From Clostridia bacterium (GTDB lineage: Bacteria > Bacillota > DSM-521 > Neomoorellales > SLTJ01): DNA of 64,000 nucleotides. Numbering within the stretch: the stretch's first letter is position 1; each line of letters starts with the position of its first letter. The DNA is taken from contig SLTJ01000001.1 of the NCBI GenBank assembly GCA_004347685.1, forward strand, positions 62,001-126,000, given 5' to 3'. The notes below the pieces were generated by a model, which did no database searches, had not been told where the DNA came from, and worked only from the letters and a program-made list of their open reading frames with translations. Shown here piece by piece: positions 16,860 through 58,115 of the stretch. The position numbers and the translations under genes are program-made.

Positions 16860-17669
16860 TTGCCTAAAGACAAGCTAACCATCCCTGATTTCATGCGCTT
16901 GAAAAAGGAAGGCCGCAAGATCACGATGCTTACGGCCTACGATTACCCCACGGCCCTCATGGTCGAGGAAGCCGGCCTGGATATGATCCTGGTGGGCGAC
17001 TCCCTGGGGATGACCGTCCTCGGCCTGGAAAGCACGATCCCGGTTACCATGGAAGATATGTTGCACCATACTAAAGCCGTAACCCGGGCTGTGCGGAACA
17101 CCTTCGTGGTGGCTGACCTTCCGTTTATGGCTTACAATATCAGCCGGGAGCAGGCCATTGCCAACTGCGGGATCCTTATCAAGGAAGGAGGGGCAGACGC
17201 GGTTAAGCTGGAAGGGGGCAACCCGTGGGTGGTGGAAACGGTGCGGGCCGTGGTTGAAGCCGGCATTCCGGTGATGGCCCACCTAGGGCTCACCCCCCAG
17301 ACGGCCACCCAGTTGGGAGGCTACCGGGTGCAGGGCAAGGATTCTGATGATGCCCGCCGCATCACCGGGCAGGCTGAGGCCCTGGCGGAGGCGGGTGCCT
17401 TCAGCCTGGTGCTGGAATGCGTGCCGGCCTCGCTGGGAGCTGAGATAACCAAAGCCTTGTTGATTCCTACCATCGGCATTGGCGCCGGCCCGGACTGTGA
17501 CGGGCAGGTGCTGGTATTTCATGATCTGGTGGGGCTCTTTGAAAAGTTCGTGCCTAAATTTGTCAAGCGGTATGCTAATGTGCGGGAGATCATTGTCCAT
17601 GCCATGGCGGAATATGCTGAAGAAGTACGTACCGGCGCCTTTCCTGATGCGCAACACAGCTTCAAGTGA
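16860..17669 (+). CDS. panB: 3-methyl-2-oxobutanoate hydroxymethyltransferase PanB
   Basis: First committed step of pantothenate synthesis: transfers a hydroxymethyl group from 5,10-methylene-THF to alpha-ketoisovalerate, giving ketopantoate. The 269-residue TIM barrel shows the metal-binding residues in LVGDSLGMTVLG (~40-51), the VKLEGG motif (~114-119), VMAHLGLTPQ (~134-143) and IPTIGIGAGPDCDGQVLVFH (~200-219). It starts at TTG 16860 behind GGAGGGA. It stands apart from panC and panD, which are in their own operon at 52877-55083. Confidence 0.96.
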   Translation: MPKDKLTIPDFMRLKKEGRKITMLTAYDYPTALMVEEAGLDMILVGDSLGMTVLGLESTIPVTMEDMLHHTKAVTRAVRNTFVVADLPFMAYNISREQAIANCGILIKEGGADAVKLEGGNPWVVETVRAVVEAGIPVMAHLGLTPQTATQLGGYRVQGKDSDDARRITGQAEALAEAGAFSLVLECVPASLGAEITKALLIPTIGIGAGPDCDGQVLVFHDLVGLFEKFVPKFVKRYANVREIIVHAMAEYAEEVRTGAFPDAQHSFK

Positions 17670-43080: not shown

Positions 43081-43215
43081 GTAACTACTCAGGCCACCGC
43101 CTGTCACCACCGCTATCGGCGGCGTTGCCGTCACTTTCACGCAGCCTGATAACCCGGCCTGCATCCTCAGCCGTTCACCGCCAGACCCCGACCGGCTTGA
43201 AGGCTGAGTGGTTAC
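43081..43215. repeat. MITE-like element, complete copy
   Basis: 135 bases bounded by imperfect inverted ends GTAACTACTCAGGCC (43081-43095) and GGCTGAGTGGTTAC (43202-43215). No coding capacity. The interior is shared with the copies at 22384 (inverted) and 59462, and the ends with those at 52445 and 52629. Confidence 0.7.
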
Positions 43216-51903: not shown

Positions 51904-52429
51904 CCCGGAGAATCTGGCCTATATAAGTATTGGTTCTAACCTGGGGGACAGAGCCGAAAACTGCCGCCGGGCTATGGCCGCGATACAGGACCACAGCCTG
52001 CAGGTGACCAAAGCTTCTCGCTTGTACCTTACCGAGCCGGTGGGGGGAATCGAGCAGCCCTGGTTTGCCAATCAGGTGGTAGAGGTGCGCACGACGCTGG
52101 CACCTCGGGAGTTGCTGGCCAGGCTCCTGGCCGTGGAGCATGAAATGGGACGGGTGCGCCAGGAACGCTGGGGGCCGCGGATAATTGACCTCGATCTGCT
52201 GCTCTACGGCGACCGCGTGGTCCAGGAGCCAGACCTGATCCTCCCCCATCCTCGGCTGGGGGAACGCGCCTTTGTGCTGGTCCCGCTGGCCGAGATCGTC
52301 CCGGAAGTTAAATTGCCCAATGGAGTTAGTGCAAAAAATCACCTGCATAACAACCAATTCTCAGAAAAGGTATTGCCATGGCCCGCGGAAGATGGTATAA
52401 TTCAAACGGATGGTATCACATTTGCGTGA
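51896..52429 (+). CDS. folK: HPPK, 2-amino-4-hydroxy-6-hydroxymethyldihydropteridine pyrophosphokinase
   Basis: 177 residues from ATG 51896, inside the folB end. AYISIGSNLGDRAENCRRAM (~8-27), SRLYLTEPVGG, WFANQVVEV and the signature RWGPRIIDLDLLLYG (~86-100) with PHPRLGERAFVL are diagnostic. It transfers pyrophosphate from ATP to the pterin. The last ~35 residues are unlike the family and may be a read-through into intergenic DNA after the original stop was lost. Confidence 0.94.
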   Translation: MADPENLAYISIGSNLGDRAENCRRAMAAIQDHSLQVTKASRLYLTEPVGGIEQPWFANQVVEVRTTLAPRELLARLLAVEHEMGRVRQERWGPRIIDLDLLLYGDRVVQEPDLILPHPRLGERAFVLVPLAEIVPEVKLPNGVSAKNHLHNNQFSEKVLPWPAEDGIIQTDGITFA

Positions 52430-52444
52430 ACCAGACCAGATTTC

Positions 52445-52584
52445 GTAACTGCTCAGCTACCCTGTCACCAGTTAGCGAAAACCAGAGGCCTGCCCGGGGT
52501 GCTCCTTGCGCCCCGCTCCGGATAGCCAGAGCGGCCCGACAGCGTTCAGGCGTCAACGCGATAGGCACCAGGCTGAGTAGTTAG
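52445..52584. repeat. MITE-like element between folK and the pantothenate operon, copy A
   Basis: 140 bases bounded by GTAACTGCTCAGC (52445-52457) and GCTGAGTAGTTAG (52572-52584), imperfect inverted ends of the same type as 43081-43215. The interior is mostly different but contains CACCAGTTAGCG, shared with the next copy. Confidence 0.6.
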
Positions 52585-52628
52585 CAGATTTCTATCAGTC
52601 CGCGTTAACGGGGAGGCGCTCACCCGCC

Positions 52629-52720
52629 GTAACTACCCCTGGGGCCGCGGGCGTTGCTCATCGCAAGCCGGGTTGACGCTTGCCGGAGGCCGCTTACCAG
52701 TTAGCGGGCCGCGTAGTTAT
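52629..52720. repeat. MITE-like element, copy B
   Basis: Shorter (92 bases) unit bounded by GTAACTAC (52629-52636) and GTAGTTAT (52713-52720), with internal ACCAGTTAGCG as in copy A. Confidence 0.5.
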
Positions 52721-52756
52721 AAGAACCGGGCAATTGCATAGTGGTCTTTTCCGCTT

Positions 52757-52831
52757 GGATCCTCGGACCGAGACGGTATCAGGGTGAGATCCCAGAGCCC
52801 TCTGGTTTTGTGTATCCAGAGGGCTTGTTTT
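52757..52831 (+). promoter_or_regulatory. Structured leader of the pantothenate operon, candidate attenuator or pan-motif RNA
   Basis: A compact fold precedes a terminator: GGATC (52757-52761) can pair with GATCC (52788-52792), enclosing CTCGG-A-CCGAG. Two small hairpins with GAGA in the loop, ACC-GAGAC-GGT and GGG-TGAGAT-CCC, lie in tandem and compete with this pairing. The terminator at 52796 then precedes the first codon by 45 bases. A pan RNA motif is known upstream of pantothenate genes in Firmicutes; whether this is one needs a covariance search. Confidence 0.45.
52796..52831 (+). terminator. Intrinsic terminator in the pantothenate leader
   Basis: AGCCCTCTGG (52796-52805) pairs perfectly with CCAGAGGGCT (52816-52825), followed by TGTTTT. 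It lies just before the DUF2520 gene and about 370 bases after folK. Confidence 0.8.
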
Positions 52832-52876
52832 GTGGAGGGTAGTTACTATGGACGTACTTTTGGGGGATGAGGATGG

Positions 52877-53812
52877 ATGCGGGTGAAGGTAGCAATCATC
52901 GGGGCCGGTTCGGTAGGCACGGCGGTAGGGGTATTGCTGGCGCGGGCCGGTTACGAAATGGCGGGGGTGGCTAGCCGCACCCCGGAATCGGCGGTCCGGC
53001 TGGCCGGCCGCCTGGGGGCTCCTTGCTGTGAGCGGCCGGAGGACGCGGCCAGGGGCGCAGATATGGTGCTGATTACCACGAGCGACCAGGCCATCGGTAC
53101 GGTGGCCCGGGAAGTGGCCCGGGCCGGGGGATTTGGGGCCGGCCAGGCAGTCATGCATTTTAGCGGTTCCCTCACTTCAGAAGTGCTGGAGCCGGCGGCC
53201 CAGGCCGGGGCCATTACCCTGTCCGTCCACCCGCTCCAATCGTGCCCTTCCGGGGAGGCCGGCATTAGGAATTTGCCCCGGGCCGTATATAGCATTGAAG
53301 GGGACCCGCGGGGGTACGAGCTGGCGGAAAAGCTGGTGCGGGCTTTGGGGAGTGCGTCGTTTTTCTTTATTGATAAGGAAGCTAAGCCCTTATACCATGC
53401 TGCGGCCTGTGTGGCCTCCAACTACCTGGTCACCTTGCTGCGCCTGAGCCAGGATCTGCTCGCCCGGGCCGGCATGCCGGTGGAGATGGCCTTCCCAGCC
53501 TTGCTGCCGCTTATTCAGGGCACCCTGGATAACGTGGCTTCCCTGGGCATCCCCCAGGCCCTCACCGGCCCCATTGCCCGGGGCGACGTAGACACCATCC
53601 AGGACCATCTGGCCGCCATGCAGGTGCAGGCCCCGGAACTTATCCCCTTTTACCGCCTTCTGGCCCGGCGGACCATTGACCTGGCGCAGGAAAAAGGCAC
53701 CCTGGCCCCCGAGAAAGCGGCCCGGTTGTGGCTGCTAATGGGCGGCCGTGAGGATCTGGCGGGCGGGGCGCCAGGCCGGCGGGAAGAAACCGCTCCCAGG
53801 TTACCCAACTAA
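52877..53812 (+). CDS. Rossmann-like/DUF2520 oxidoreductase, candidate ketopantoate reductase
   Basis: 311 residues from ATG 52877. The N-terminal NADP-binding fold has VAIIGAGSVGTAVGVLLARA (~5-24) and ASRTPESAVRLAGRLG; then VMHFSGSL and LSVHPLQSCPSG (~112-125); the C-terminal DUF2520 helical domain has AACVASNYLVTLLRLSQDLL and GPIARGDVDTIQDHL. The overall plan matches PanE/ProC-like dehydrogenases. It is first in the operon with panC and panD, and no panE is seen, so it may reduce ketopantoate to pantoate (inference from context). Confidence 0.85.
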   Translation: MRVKVAIIGAGSVGTAVGVLLARAGYEMAGVASRTPESAVRLAGRLGAPCCERPEDAARGADMVLITTSDQAIGTVAREVARAGGFGAGQAVMHFSGSLTSEVLEPAAQAGAITLSVHPLQSCPSGEAGIRNLPRAVYSIEGDPRGYELAEKLVRALGSASFFFIDKEAKPLYHAAACVASNYLVTLLRLSQDLLARAGMPVEMAFPALLPLIQGTLDNVASLGIPQALTGPIARGDVDTIQDHLAAMQVQAPELIPFYRLLARRTIDLAQEKGTLAPEKAARLWLLMGGREDLAGGAPGRREETAPRLPN

Positions 53813-53838: not shown

Positions 53839-54681
53839 GTGGAGATATTGAGAACAATTACCGAAGTAAGGGAATACGTGGTCGGGCAGCGGGCCCGCGG
53901 GGCGAGGATAGGCCTAGTACCTACCATGGGGTACTTCCATGCCGGGCACCTGGAGCTCATGCGCCGGGCTGGTGGGGCCGGGTATACGGTGGTGGTGAGC
54001 ATTTTTGTCAACCCCACCCAGTTCGGCCCGGGGGAGGACTATGAGCGGTATCCCCGGGATTTGGCCCGGGATGCGCAAATGGCCCAGACGGCGGGGGCCG
54101 ACGTCCTTTTTGTCCCTGAGGCGGCAGAGATGTATCCGTCAGGTTACGGCACCTATGTCCAGGTGGAGGGAGTGAGTGAGGGTCTCTGTGGGGCTGCCCG
54201 GCCGGGGCACTTCCGCGGGGTGGCCACGGTGGTCTGCAAGCTGTTTAACATTGTCCAGCCGGAGGCGGCTTTCTTCGGCCAGAAGGACTACCAGCAGGTC
54301 ATGGTGATAAAGAGAATGGCGGCCGATCTGAACCTGCCCGTAGCTATCACGGTGGTGCCCACGGTGCGGGAAGCCGATGGTCTGGCCATGAGCTCTCGCA
54401 ACACCTATCTCAGCCCGGAGGAGCGCCGGCAAGCCCTGGCCCTGTATCAGGCCCTGCGGCTGGGGGAACGCCTGATTAAGAGCGGCGAAAGGCGGGCCGC
54501 AGCCGTTGAGACAGCCCTGCGCGAGGGATTGCAGAAGCCGGGGGTAAGGTTAGACTACGCGGAGGTGCGCCGGGCCGGGGACCTGGCCCGGGTGGAAGTA
54601 ATAGAAGATGACGCGGTCTTGTTGGTAGCGGCCTGGGTAGGGCAGACCAGATTGATTGATAACCTGGTAGTGGGGGTATAG
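53839..54681 (+). CDS. panC: Pantoate--beta-alanine ligase
   Basis: 280 residues from GTG 53839. GLVPTMGYFHAGHLELMRRA (~27-46) is the ATP-binding HxGH region; VSIFVNPTQFGPGEDYERYP, FFGQKDYQQVMVIKRMAADL (~148-167) and DGLAMSSRNTYLSPEER (~183-199) are family motifs. It joins pantoate and beta-alanine with ATP to give pantothenate. panD starts 3 bases after its stop. Confidence 0.96.
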   Translation: MEILRTITEVREYVVGQRARGARIGLVPTMGYFHAGHLELMRRAGGAGYTVVVSIFVNPTQFGPGEDYERYPRDLARDAQMAQTAGADVLFVPEAAEMYPSGYGTYVQVEGVSEGLCGAARPGHFRGVATVVCKLFNIVQPEAAFFGQKDYQQVMVIKRMAADLNLPVAITVVPTVREADGLAMSSRNTYLSPEERRQALALYQALRLGERLIKSGERRAAAVETALREGLQKPGVRLDYAEVRRAGDLARVEVIEDDAVLLVAAWVGQTRLIDNLVVGV

Positions 54682-54684
54682 GCC

Positions 54685-55083
54685 ATGTGGCGAGAGATGA
54701 TGAAGGCAAAAATCCACCGGGCAACGGTGACCGAGGCCAATCTGAACTATGTGGGCAGCATCACCATTGACAGTCGCTTGCTGGAAGCGGCTGACATCCT
54801 GCCGAACGAAAAAGTACAGGTGGTCAACAACAATAACGGTGCCCGGCTGGAAACCTACGTCATTCCCGGGAAGCCGGGCAGCGGCGTGATCTGTCTGAAC
54901 GGGGCCGCAGCCAGGCTGGTGCAGCCGGGGGATAACATAATCATCATCTCTTACTGTTGGCTGGCAGAGGGTGATGTGGAGGGGTTCCGGCCGCGGGTGG
55001 TCTTTGTTAACGAGGCCAACGAAATAGTAGAAATACGCGACCATGAAATCTACGGGCAGGTATGGGTCAACGCGGATTCATAG
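54685..55083 (+). CDS. panD: Aspartate 1-decarboxylase
   Basis: 132 residues from ATG 54685. [20 protein letters not shown] then TID contains the Gly-Ser pair (~residues 28-29) where the proenzyme self-cleaves to form the pyruvoyl cofactor; [12 protein letters not shown] and [12 protein letters not shown] follow. It makes beta-alanine for PanC. The stop is about 100 bases before the end of the converging DNA methylase gene, which marks the edge of an inserted cassette. Confidence 0.96.
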
Positions 55084-55184: not shown

Positions 55185-56189
55185 TTACGTTGTAGTGTTA
55201 GCAGAGGATGCAAAACTCAAAACGGGTTGTTTGATGGGCCTTAGGCTGACCTGTTGTTGGCCATTGAGGATACACCTGTAAGCATGCATTGCCTGCTCAA
55301 CGTCATCACAAAACCTTATTACCGAACTTGCTACGTATTCTCGCTCCAATTCAAAGGCGATCCAACGCCGGTCTAAACGTTCTGCAACCTCACCAGTGGT
55401 ATTAGAACCTGCGAAAACATCTACGACCAGATCCCCAGGGTCCGTTAAGAGCCTGATAAAAAATTCGGGGAGACGGGCCGGAAATCTCGCTGGATGGCTC
55501 TTGATCCCGAGTTCTTTGCAGGCCCGCATGTACCACGAGGTACTCTCCGTATTAGGGAGTTCCAGAAGGTTGGAAGGAATGGCCCCCCCACGGTCCAAGC
55601 CAAAGCCATCGGAAATATCATGGCCCGACGGGCGCTCCTTTGGATCGTACCACCTTTTGCCATCCTTAAGTAGTTTTTTCATTCGCTCTGAGTACGGGAC
55701 CAGCACATTGCTCACGGAAGCCTTGGGAAATTCAGCGACAGAGAACCACCAAACAGTATTGACCGCATCCTTTACTCGTATTTTGCGCTTATTAACCCAC
55801 TCAATGGGCGAAGGCAGTTTTGCTGGATTATACCAAAAGAATTCTTCCGCAAGGAAATAGCCCTCCTCTTTGCAGAAACGCAGTAGTACTTCGTAGTTAT
55901 ACAGTGACCTTACTGGCACACCCTTCTGATAAGCTCCCCCCAAGTCCAAGACAAAGCTCCCGGTTGGGGTAAGCTTGACCTTGAGCTTTCGAGCAAACCC
56001 CACCAACCAGTCCACGTAATCTTCCTGGTCCTTATTTCCATATTCTTTCTGCCTTTGCAAGGCAAATGGTGGCGAAGTCATAACAAGATCTATTGAGGCA
56101 TCCGGAAGATCTTCGATAAGTTTCATGGAATCGCCACAATACGCCTGCCCCATACGGGTTTCATAGGCGGGCAGATCCCCCACAAGCAT
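55185..56189 (-). CDS. Beta-type site-specific DNA methyltransferase
   Basis: 334 residues read leftwards from ATG at 56189. The catalytic motif TSPPF (~residues 38-42, in DLVMTSPPFALQRQKEYG) comes before the SAM-binding motif VVDVFAGSNTTGEVAERL (~252-269), the beta-class order; S/TPPF hints at N4-cytosine methylation, but N6-adenine is possible. The target-recognition region lies between (~110-240). The DNA is visibly less GC-rich than the flanking pan and bir genes. It is divergent from the XRE and HEAT-repeat genes, the usual layout of a controlled restriction-modification cassette. Confidence 0.9.
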   Translation of the reverse strand: MLVGDLPAYETRMGQAYCGDSMKLIEDLPDASIDLVMTSPPFALQRQKEYGNKDQEDYVDWLVGFARKLKVKLTPTGSFVLDLGGAYQKGVPVRSLYNYEVLLRFCKEEGYFLAEEFFWYNPAKLPSPIEWVNKRKIRVKDAVNTVWWFSVAEFPKASVSNVLVPYSERMKKLLKDGKRWYDPKERPSGHDISDGFGLDRGGAIPSNLLELPNTESTSWYMRACKELGIKSHPARFPARLPEFFIRLLTDPGDLVVDVFAGSNTTGEVAERLDRRWIAFELEREYVASSVIRFCDDVEQAMHAYRCILNGQQQVSLRPIKQPVLSFASSANTTT

Positions 56190-56305
56190 CCCCCTCTTAA
56201 CAAGAGACCGGTGGCTACCCTGATTTACCGACCTGGTTCATTTACAAACCCAATTTATATTAGACACCAACTCGTGCTTCCAGTCAAGGGGGTTCTGGAT
56301 AAAGA

Positions 56306-56353
56306 ATGCTACTCATCGTCTGTAGACCCTAATTAAAAGTATGAGATGCTACT
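56306..56353 (+). promoter_or_regulatory. Direct repeats in the divergent control region (candidate C-boxes)
   Basis: ATGCTACT occurs at 56306-56313 and 56346-56353, exactly 40 bases apart, each followed by a TGTRGAC word (TGTAGAC near 56321, TGTGGAC near 56354). They lie 43-90 bases before the XRE gene, where C-protein operators sit in controlled type II systems. Confidence 0.45.
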
Positions 56354-56395
56354 TGTGGACTGCATTTCCTACCAAAATGCGCAGGAGGGACCCAT

Positions 56396-56635
56396 ATGCA
56401 GCCATGTACTTATCAGAGCCTCTTTGGCCAGAGGGTGCGGTCACTTCGTTTGCGCATGGGCGTTTCCCAGGAAGAACTGGCATTCCAAAGTGGCCTGCAC
56501 CGAACGTATATCGGCGCAATCGAACGTGGCGAACGCAATATATCCTTGGACAGCATTGTGAAGTTAGCTCGGGCGCTGGGGGTTCAGCCCGCAGATCTAA
56601 TGCCCAGCCTGGAGGAGAAAAATAATGGCCTTTAA
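56396..56635 (+). CDS. XRE-family controller-like DNA-binding protein
   Basis: 79 residues, ATG 56396 behind GGAGGGACCC. The whole protein is one helix-turn-helix domain: GQRVRSLRLRMGVSQEELAF (~11-30), QSGLHRTYIGAIERGERNIS (~31-50), LDSIVKLARALGVQPADLM. Size and sequence match C-proteins that time restriction-modification expression. The next gene starts within its last 11 bases, so the effector is coupled to it. Confidence 0.9.
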   Translation: MQPCTYQSLFGQRVRSLRLRMGVSQEELAFQSGLHRTYIGAIERGERNISLDSIVKLARALGVQPADLMPSLEEKNNGL

Positions 56636-58115
56636 ATCCGATAGGAGTTTCCTGGACAAGCTTACGATGGGGGCTCTTGGCACGACATACGCCAAAAACG
56701 TTCTTATGTATCATGGGCATAAGGTCATTGAGCTGGAGCGATGCTCCACCAGCAACAAAATTTGGTCTACCAAGGTTAAAAGACTGCGTATCCCAGACCT
56801 GCTCTGCGTGAACTGCGGGCGACGTATGGAGGTAAGATCCAAGTCCACTCTTAAAATTACCATGTCGGACTCCCCGTCTATACCGCATCGCCGGTGGGAC
56901 TACGGTTTGCGGGACGATGACCTGGTTCTTCTTATTGCTTGTAACAAGGATTTACATACCTCCAATTGGGTACCGTCCAGTGCTATAAATGCCTTTACAG
57001 TTGGAGATTTAAGAGCAACAGTTCATCTTTCCAGGCTTGGGCCTCCGAAGTCCGCAGCAGAGGGAGCAGAGCGTGACCGTACCTGGCCTTGTTATGTTCC
57101 GTCGTTTGGTGGTCAAGTAATTGAGGTAAAACCAGAATTCATCTCGGTGCGAAAAGTAAACGGGCGGAGACAAACCTACTCCCTGGTCCGGGCTGGGTAC
57201 CATCCCCATGTTTTTCGTGGTCAAACATTCGAGCCCGACTCGGTTATCGCCGCCTCCGTGGTACCGCGATTGGCAGATCTCTCATGTCATGTTGACAAAC
57301 CCTTCGACTTTATCGCTAACCTTGCCGCTACTGATCGTGAAACGCTTTATTGCGCGGTTAAGGCGTTAGGGCGATTGCCTGAAGCCGGAAAGGCGGCGAT
57401 CTCTCACCTGTTAAGGATAGCTGGGGGTGGCACTGACGACCAACTGGTGCGACTTGAAGCGTACGCTTCCCTTGCTCGGCTCGGCTACGCACGGGCATGG
57501 AAAGGAATCTCAACCTTCTTGCAATCCGGAAGCCCTGAAGTAAGGATGGAGGCCGTTCTTATTCTCGGCGAACTGAATGACCCGGCGGCACAGAGTATTT
57601 TGTCAGACATTGCCTCTAACCATGCTAATGATTCCGAACTAAGGGCGGCTGCCGTTTGGGAAATGGGACATTGTCGTTTTGACAATCCTCTAAATCAGCT
57701 TCTACCGTATTTTGGTGATGATGACCATTTTGTAGCGATACATGCCATTGTTGCCTCCTTGCCGTATATCAACGCAGAAACCCTACCCTTCCTATTGCAA
57801 GAACTAGGCCCTCCCCACCGTTCAGCCGCTGTAGTACGCGCTATTGTCGAAAGCAATTTCCGTGATGTGAACTTGTTGGTGGATTACCTGTTCCGCATCA
57901 GTACGGAGGCCCAAAAACCGTGGATACTTTATCTTTTTGGTCTGCTCGGTGAGGAGGTTGTGAGACCGGCTCTGGTGGGACATGGTAAGGAGGAAGATGA
58001 AACGGCTCAAATGCTGTCAATCCTATGGAATCAACATTTTCATAACTGGACTAATGAGTTTAGTGCTCAAGATCTTTTGGACTATACGCTTCGGCAAAAT
58101 ATTCGTGGCACATAA
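56625..58115 (+). CDS. Putative restriction effector: PD-(D/E)xK-like N-terminus with HEAT repeats
   Basis: 496 residues, ATG 56625 behind GGAGGAG. Not a recognised family. Residues ~15-36 (MGALGTTYAKNVLMYHGHKV) look like the first helix and strand of a PD-(D/E)xK nuclease; RIPDLLCVNCGRRMEVRSKS (~55-74) offers Pro57-Asp58 and Glu69 with Arg71/Lys73 as a catalytic set, together with a CVNC pair that may bind zinc. Residues ~230-430 form several HEAT-like helical repeats (DRETLYCAVKALGRLPEAGK; VRLEAYASLARLGYARAWKG; VRMEAVLILGELNDPAAQSI; LRAAAVWEMGHCRFDNPLNQ). Coupled to the XRE gene and divergent from the methylase, it is the likely cognate endonuclease. The nuclease call is inference. Confidence 0.6.
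   Translation: MAFKSDRSFLDKLTMGALGTTYAKNVLMYHGHKVIELERCSTSNKIWSTKVKRLRIPDLLCVNCGRRMEVRSKSTLKITMSDSPSIPHRRWDYGLRDDDLVLLIACNKDLHTSNWVPSSAINAFTVGDLRATVHLSRLGPPKSAAEGAERDRTWPCYVPSFGGQVIEVKPEFISVRKVNGRRQTYSLVRAGYHPHVFRGQTFEPDSVIAASVVPRLADLSCHVDKPFDFIANLAATDRETLYCAVKALGRLPEAGKAAISHLLRIAGGGTDDQLVRLEAYASLARLGYARAWKGISTFLQSGSPEVRMEAVLILGELNDPAAQSILSDIASNHANDSELRAAAVWEMGHCRFDNPLNQLLPYFGDDDHFVAIHAIVASLPYINAETLPFLLQELGPPHRSAAVVRAIVESNFRDVNLLVDYLFRISTEAQKPWILYLFGLLGEEVVRPALVGHGKEEDETAQMLSILWNQHFHNWTNEFSAQDLLDYTLRQNIRGT

Follow-up and report, generated by a model that had tools for sequence, protein, structure and literature searches.

A probable pan-class attenuation leader, split by transposition, ahead of a clostridial DUF2520-panC-panD operon

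Background

Attenuation leaders that act through an intrinsic terminator are either protein-controlled or of the riboswitch type. For pantothenate genes, the closest described element is the pan motif (Rfam RF01749), which in the parts of its description cited here consists of mostly tandem units, has a stem with two conserved bulged A residues, and lies upstream of panB, panC or panD (PMC2864571). The same parts of that work (Weinberg et al. 2010) report the motif from three phyla and take the close spacing of the units as a hint of a dimeric protein (PMC2864571). Two RNA-seq papers mention pan, in the portions cited here, either in front of a panB operon or among the leaders that were detected (PMC4342826, PMC4634765). 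The main text of an article on CoA synthesis in B. subtilis (PMC11487621) does not mention a riboswitch, panBCD, an RNA motif or attenuation, and PMC3766115 does not mention the pan motif, pan RNA, panB or pantothenate. Within the open-licence literature, no title or opening of an abstract gives an effector or a switching mechanism for pan; subscription papers may do so.

Here we describe the leader of DUF2520-panC-panD in a clostridial DNA stretch of 64,000 nucleotides (the window, to which all coordinates refer). From sequence and comparison with relatives, a promoter match, two pan units, an insertion between them and an intrinsic terminator can be recognised (Table 1). We consider it probable that this is an attenuation leader of the known pan class (RF01749) that was naturally split by transposition, with an effector and a mode of control that we infer.

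Results

Operon and surroundings

The initial annotation had placed a structured leader with a perfect 10-bp terminator in front of DUF2520-panC-panD, and the terminator and the three genes are confirmed here by the inverted repeat with its T-rich tail and by family matches, respectively (Table 1). The distance to the operon was given as 45 bases and is corrected to 51, counted between the end of the inverted repeat and the DUF2520 start codon (52877). The leader element itself reaches about 350 bases further upstream than the annotated segment 52757-52876. Upstream on the same strand lie folP-folB-folK.

Table 1. Features of the leader and operon in the window
Feature	Position	Strand	Details
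Promoter match	52373..52401	+	TTGCCA-17-TATAAT, within the end of folK; expected start ~52407-52409
pan unit 1	52407..52438	+	Hairpin CGGAUGGUAUCACAUUUGCGUGAACCAGACCA; both bulged A (52415, 52435)
Target duplication, left copy	52437..52444	+	8 bp, CAGATTTC
MITE A	52445..52584	.	140 bp; terminal inverted repeats GTAACTGCTCAGC / GCTGAGTAGTTAG
Target duplication, right copy	52585..52592	+	8 bp, CAGATTTC; perfect match to left copy
Second MITE-like piece	52629..52720	.	GTAACTAC ... GTAGTTAT; relative at L008, 77% over 61 nt
pan unit 2	52751..52776	+	CCGCUUGGAUC-CUCG-GACCGAGACGG; bulged A at 52759 and 52773; from model R2 and relatives' consensus
Tail, unit 2 to terminator	52777..52795	+	Possible antiterminator strand 52778-52784
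Intrinsic terminator	52796..52834	+	Perfect 10-bp stem 52796-52805/52816-52825, T-rich tail
DUF2520 / Rossmann-like gene	52877..53812	+	First in operon; PF10728, E 5.3e-39
panC	53839..54681	+	TIGR00018, E 9.2e-102
panD	54685..55083	+	TIGR00223, E 1.5e-48

The DUF2520 gene overlaps at its start with a 12-codon frame (MDVLLGDEDGCG, 52848-52886) whose ribosome-binding site, GGAGGG, is a good one, and translational coupling is possible. Beside this frame, GGGTAGTTAC (52837-52846) is a perfect complement of the end of the second MITE-like piece (52629-52638), and this pairing appears in the predicted leader fold. The panB gene stands alone at 16872-17648, about 36 kb from panC-panD, and the whole-genome search with the unit 2 model (R2, below) found no pan unit near it. 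Between panD and birA-bioY, a N6/N4-family DNA methylase and a HEAT-repeat protein (55185-58115) possibly represent an inserted modification or defence module.

Membership in the pan class

No Rfam family exceeds its cut-off in the leader. The best sub-threshold match is the pan motif RF01749 itself (52687-52780), with 19.7 bits against a cut-off of 36.2, a gathering score that serves as an annotation threshold and is not a structural feature. In a search of 101 genomes with filters stricter than those of the small search, this match is the only one in the source genome; 73 genomes have any match and 45 of the 101 exceed the cut-off. We attribute the low whole-model score to the MITE insertions, which part the units so that the model cannot span them. 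The unit 1 placement by Rfam (52687-52710) was rejected: this hairpin falls within the second MITE-like piece, which is related to another site of the genome, the two bulged A are missing from it, and the relatives have their unit 1 at a different position.

For comparison we used 40 relatives' leaders, drawn from the 73 genomes with a match and composed of the 30 best-scoring loci and ten chosen relatives of the same order, four of which score below the Rfam cut-off. Both pan helices covary in these relatives, with counts that lean towards pairing because the leaders were found by models that demand it. The leader shares with RF01749 the tandem units on one strand, the two bulged A in both units, the sequence and structure of unit 2 and the pan genes downstream. 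The short linker of the RF01749 relatives is absent: the units are 312 nt apart here, as against 22-50 nt in 38 relatives' leaders, a difference explained by insertions with an 8-bp target duplication.

Unit 2, the hairpin just before the terminator, is nearly invariant across the relatives of the order (CCGCUUGGAUC-loop-GACCGAGACGG). All of its 22 stem and bulge bases equal their consensus, all ten pairs and both bulged A are present, and the loop is CUCG. A covariance model of unit 2 (R2), built from a hand-picked 24 of the 40 relatives' leaders with the window excluded (left out were the mis-assigned G024 and 15 others), finds this hairpin as its best match in the whole genome, with 38 bits and an E-value of 2.8e-9; the runner-up has 16.9 bits. 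Its mean pairing probability in the predicted leader fold is 0.92. The fold z-score of 52730-52880 taken alone is modest (-1.82, with 8 of 200 shuffles as good); it is homology that argues for the structured element.

The pattern of unit 2 is widespread. A scan of named genomes based on proteins found no relative; the scan with the DNA pattern of unit 2 matched at least 119 stretches in named genomes. Among 80 of these at least 119 loci, 71 have panB, panC, panD or DUF2520 within 3.5 kb downstream on the same strand, and at a Moorella thermoacetica locus (L127) the same pattern lies ahead of DUF2520-panC-panD. The initial reading is supported in its broad lines: the leader would control pantothenate genes by transcription attenuation, is related to the pan motif and belongs to an organism resembling Moorella. 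The suggestion of a divergent or new type is not upheld, as unit 2 is canonical letter for letter. In the same 80 loci (L070-L149), exact copies of unit 2 ahead of pan genes occur in records of Chloroflexi, Deltaproteobacteria and Clostridia, and likewise in records titled Nitrospinota, Acidobacteria, Myxococcales, Dadabacteria, Binatia and Methylomirabilis. Many of these records are metagenome bins; their taxonomic spread is wider than the three phyla given in the cited part of PMC2864571.

Promoter and pan unit 1

The promoter match agrees with the consensus at 11 of 12 positions and has a TG; none of 2000 shuffles equals it. In the relatives, a promoter score of at least 9 is reached at the corresponding place in 21 of 38 leaders (99 of 1900 shuffles), and in many of them unit 1 starts a few bases past the match, within the order at the end of folK. 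The same layout is found here, where unit 1 begins 5 nt past the promoter match.

Unit 1 is weaker than unit 2: it forms eight of ten pairs, with two positions unpaired, and keeps both bulged A. A corresponding model (R1) was made from unit 1 of 32 of the 40 relatives' leaders, with the window excluded; dropped were G002 and G011, which have no acceptable unit 1, the duplicates G020 and G071, and G003, G013, G014 and G021, which have two unpaired positions (four similar others were kept). Within the 64-kb window unit 1 is the only match of R1 (16.9 bits, E 0.31), and in a search of the leader alone its E-value is 0.0024. It is not the top-ranked match when R1 is searched across the whole genome, so that its position beside the promoter carries much of the argument. 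Its mean pairing probability in the predicted leader fold is 0.91. The covariance-model search suggested by the initial annotation thus gave a sub-threshold pan match, and the unit models from the relatives find both hairpins; neither an absence of covariation nor a promoter match downstream of the terminator, which would have spoken against the leader, was observed.

Mobile elements between the units

A 140-bp element, MITE A, is inserted between the two pan units, as judged from sequence and comparison. It has terminal inverted repeats and a target duplication and lacks a long coding frame, in accordance with the definition of a MITE. Elsewhere in the genome there are four near full-length copies (80-89% identity), a partial one and a further short match at a contig end; a search of 40 relatives found no match. 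The terminal repeat of MITE A occurs at 146 sites in the genome, compared with 29 for the reversed control. Many of the 146 lie at contig ends, as if a longer repeated element had broken the assembly. A further pair of MITE terminal repeats, of the GTAACTRCTCAGCC family and about 135 bp apart, is found at 43081-43215.

The second MITE-like piece shows no visible target duplication and is probably a second, older MITE insertion between the units. The comparison covers a single genome of the source genus and no relative with an empty site.

In the minimum-energy fold predicted for the complete leader, unit 1, unit 2 and the terminator all form, and MITE A is closed on itself. The predicted energies add up, with -186.4 kcal/mol for the entire leader, -123.1 when MITE A is removed and -63.3 for MITE A together with its duplications. 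With MITE A folded in this way, the two units and the terminator are expected to form despite the insertion. A special neutrality of the insert towards unit 2 is not significant, as 11 of 60 shuffled inserts preserve the unit equally well, and we therefore claim no special adaptation of the insert.

Terminator and candidate antiterminator

The inverted repeat of the terminator is followed by TTGTTTTG, and the pairing probability of the terminator in the predicted leader fold is 0.99. A terminator within 120 nt after unit 2 is present in 38 of the 40 relatives' leaders, against 59 of 800 shuffled sequences; it starts 11-27 nt past unit 2 in 37 of them and 92 nt past it in G090, and none was found in G047 and G100.

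In the relatives, the last five bases of unit 2 and the next eight fit their own terminator better than the terminators of other genomes. None of 5000 permutations reaches the observed complementarity in 28 genomes (a subset of the 35 relatives tested by shuffling), and with one genome per family (16 genomes) 9 of 10000 do (p about 0.001). Mononucleotide shuffling of 35 of the 40 leaders (without G027, G047, G071, G090 and G100) gives a mean z of -1.75 for the pairing of tail and terminator, with 25 of 35 below -1; pyrimidine runs may inflate this z, and we rely on the permutation tests instead. The 3' strand of unit 2 alone shows no such complementarity to the terminator in the permutation tests of the relatives. 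An antiterminator formed by the 5' strand of unit 2 was rejected, having no support in the shuffle and permutation tests of the relatives. The tail-terminator match suggests that the relatives have an antiterminator in competition with two other structures, the foot of unit 2 and the terminator. The corresponding pairing in the window, 52778-52784 with 52801-52807, is equalled by 352 of 2000 shuffled tails (z 0.0), and the terminator dominates the predicted end state.

Discussion

The arrangement can be read as a control by attenuation. Transcription would begin where folK ends, almost on the first pan hairpin, and proceed through unit 2 and the terminator into the genes. An effector, either a protein, perhaps dimeric, or a small molecule, would report sufficient pantothenate or CoA and hold the pan hairpins. 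Once unit 2 is held in this way, neither its foot nor the following bases could pair with the terminator, which would then form and stop transcription; without the effector, the same bases would pair with the terminator as an antiterminator and the genes would be read. Because of the competition of such an antiterminator with both unit 2's foot and the terminator, anything that holds unit 2 would promote termination, and this presumed direction is the one expected for end-product repression. The split leader of this genome may still work.

The spacing far beyond the range of the relatives, the weakened unit 1, the lack of a clear antiterminator and the predominance of the terminator would also suit a leader that is no longer regulated, in which control was lost with the separation of the units by the MITEs and the remnants give constant partial read-through. 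We regard such a loss as unlikely, though deserving serious attention, because unit 2 is fully conserved, unit 1 keeps both bulged A and the promoter match is intact; moreover, the leaders of G002 and G011 without a recognisable unit 1 indicate that one unit may suffice. Unit 2 would be the only unit in use, on an mRNA with a single unit and the terminator, if transcription started inside the inserted DNA. A weaker promoter-like match, TTACCA-18-TATAAG (52694-52723), agrees there with 9 of 12 consensus positions, and mobile elements often bring promoters. This start seems rather improbable: the upstream match is better and positioned as in the relatives, the internal -10 ends in a base other than T, and the internal match is absent from the stricter promoter scan.

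The fol genes upstream on the same strand could suggest an ordinary terminator of folP-folB-folK without a regulatory role for pan. We find this very improbable for a terminator about 370 bases past folK that is preceded by a promoter match and two pan units and recurs at a similar place after unit 2 in nearly all relatives. The switch proposed initially, with two tandem GAGA-loop hairpins and an alternative pairing of GGATC (52757-52761) with GATCC (52788-52792) as a new type of RNA, is hardly credible. Its letters are indeed present in the window, but none of the 40 relatives' leaders has a GATCC in the 27 nt that follow the unit. The first GAGA (52770-52773) belongs to the 3' strand of the longer hairpin 52751-52776, so that a hairpin around it clashes with the covarying pan helix, and the second (GGG-UGAGAU-CCC) has only 3 bp in the predicted fold.

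Returning to the split pan-class leader, we tentatively propose that the attenuator may still work at a unit spacing of 312 nt, because the inserted MITE folds into a closed domain of the RNA. In that case the units would act independently, or a protein dimer would bring them together by looping, and base pairing between the terminator and the stretch after unit 2 might be the switch of pan RNAs generally. The locus offers a natural experiment, by insertion, on whether pan units need to lie close together. The comparison of the relatives, with 38 of 40 terminators and the complementarity of tail and terminator, leads to a concrete model of antitermination that is testable by in vitro transcription. 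It also illustrates how a search with a whole RNA model can overlook a member of its class, here because of a mobile element in the linker. Both the split by a transposon and the hint of an antiterminator in the relatives are worth following.

Compared with bacterial MITEs (reviewed in PMC10969869), MITE A is alike in being short and non-coding and in its terminal inverted repeats, target duplication and many terminal-repeat sites, and differs by its location inside a structured regulatory leader. The leader resembles RF01749 in having two hairpins, whose stems each carry two bulged A, in front of pan genes; it differs in the MITE-derived DNA between the units, the score below the cut-off and the weaker unit 1. 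With attenuation leaders that use an intrinsic terminator it shares the succession of promoter, structured leader, terminator and biosynthetic genes, and the competing pairing of tail and terminator is supported in its relatives, whereas the window's own pairing is not above chance.
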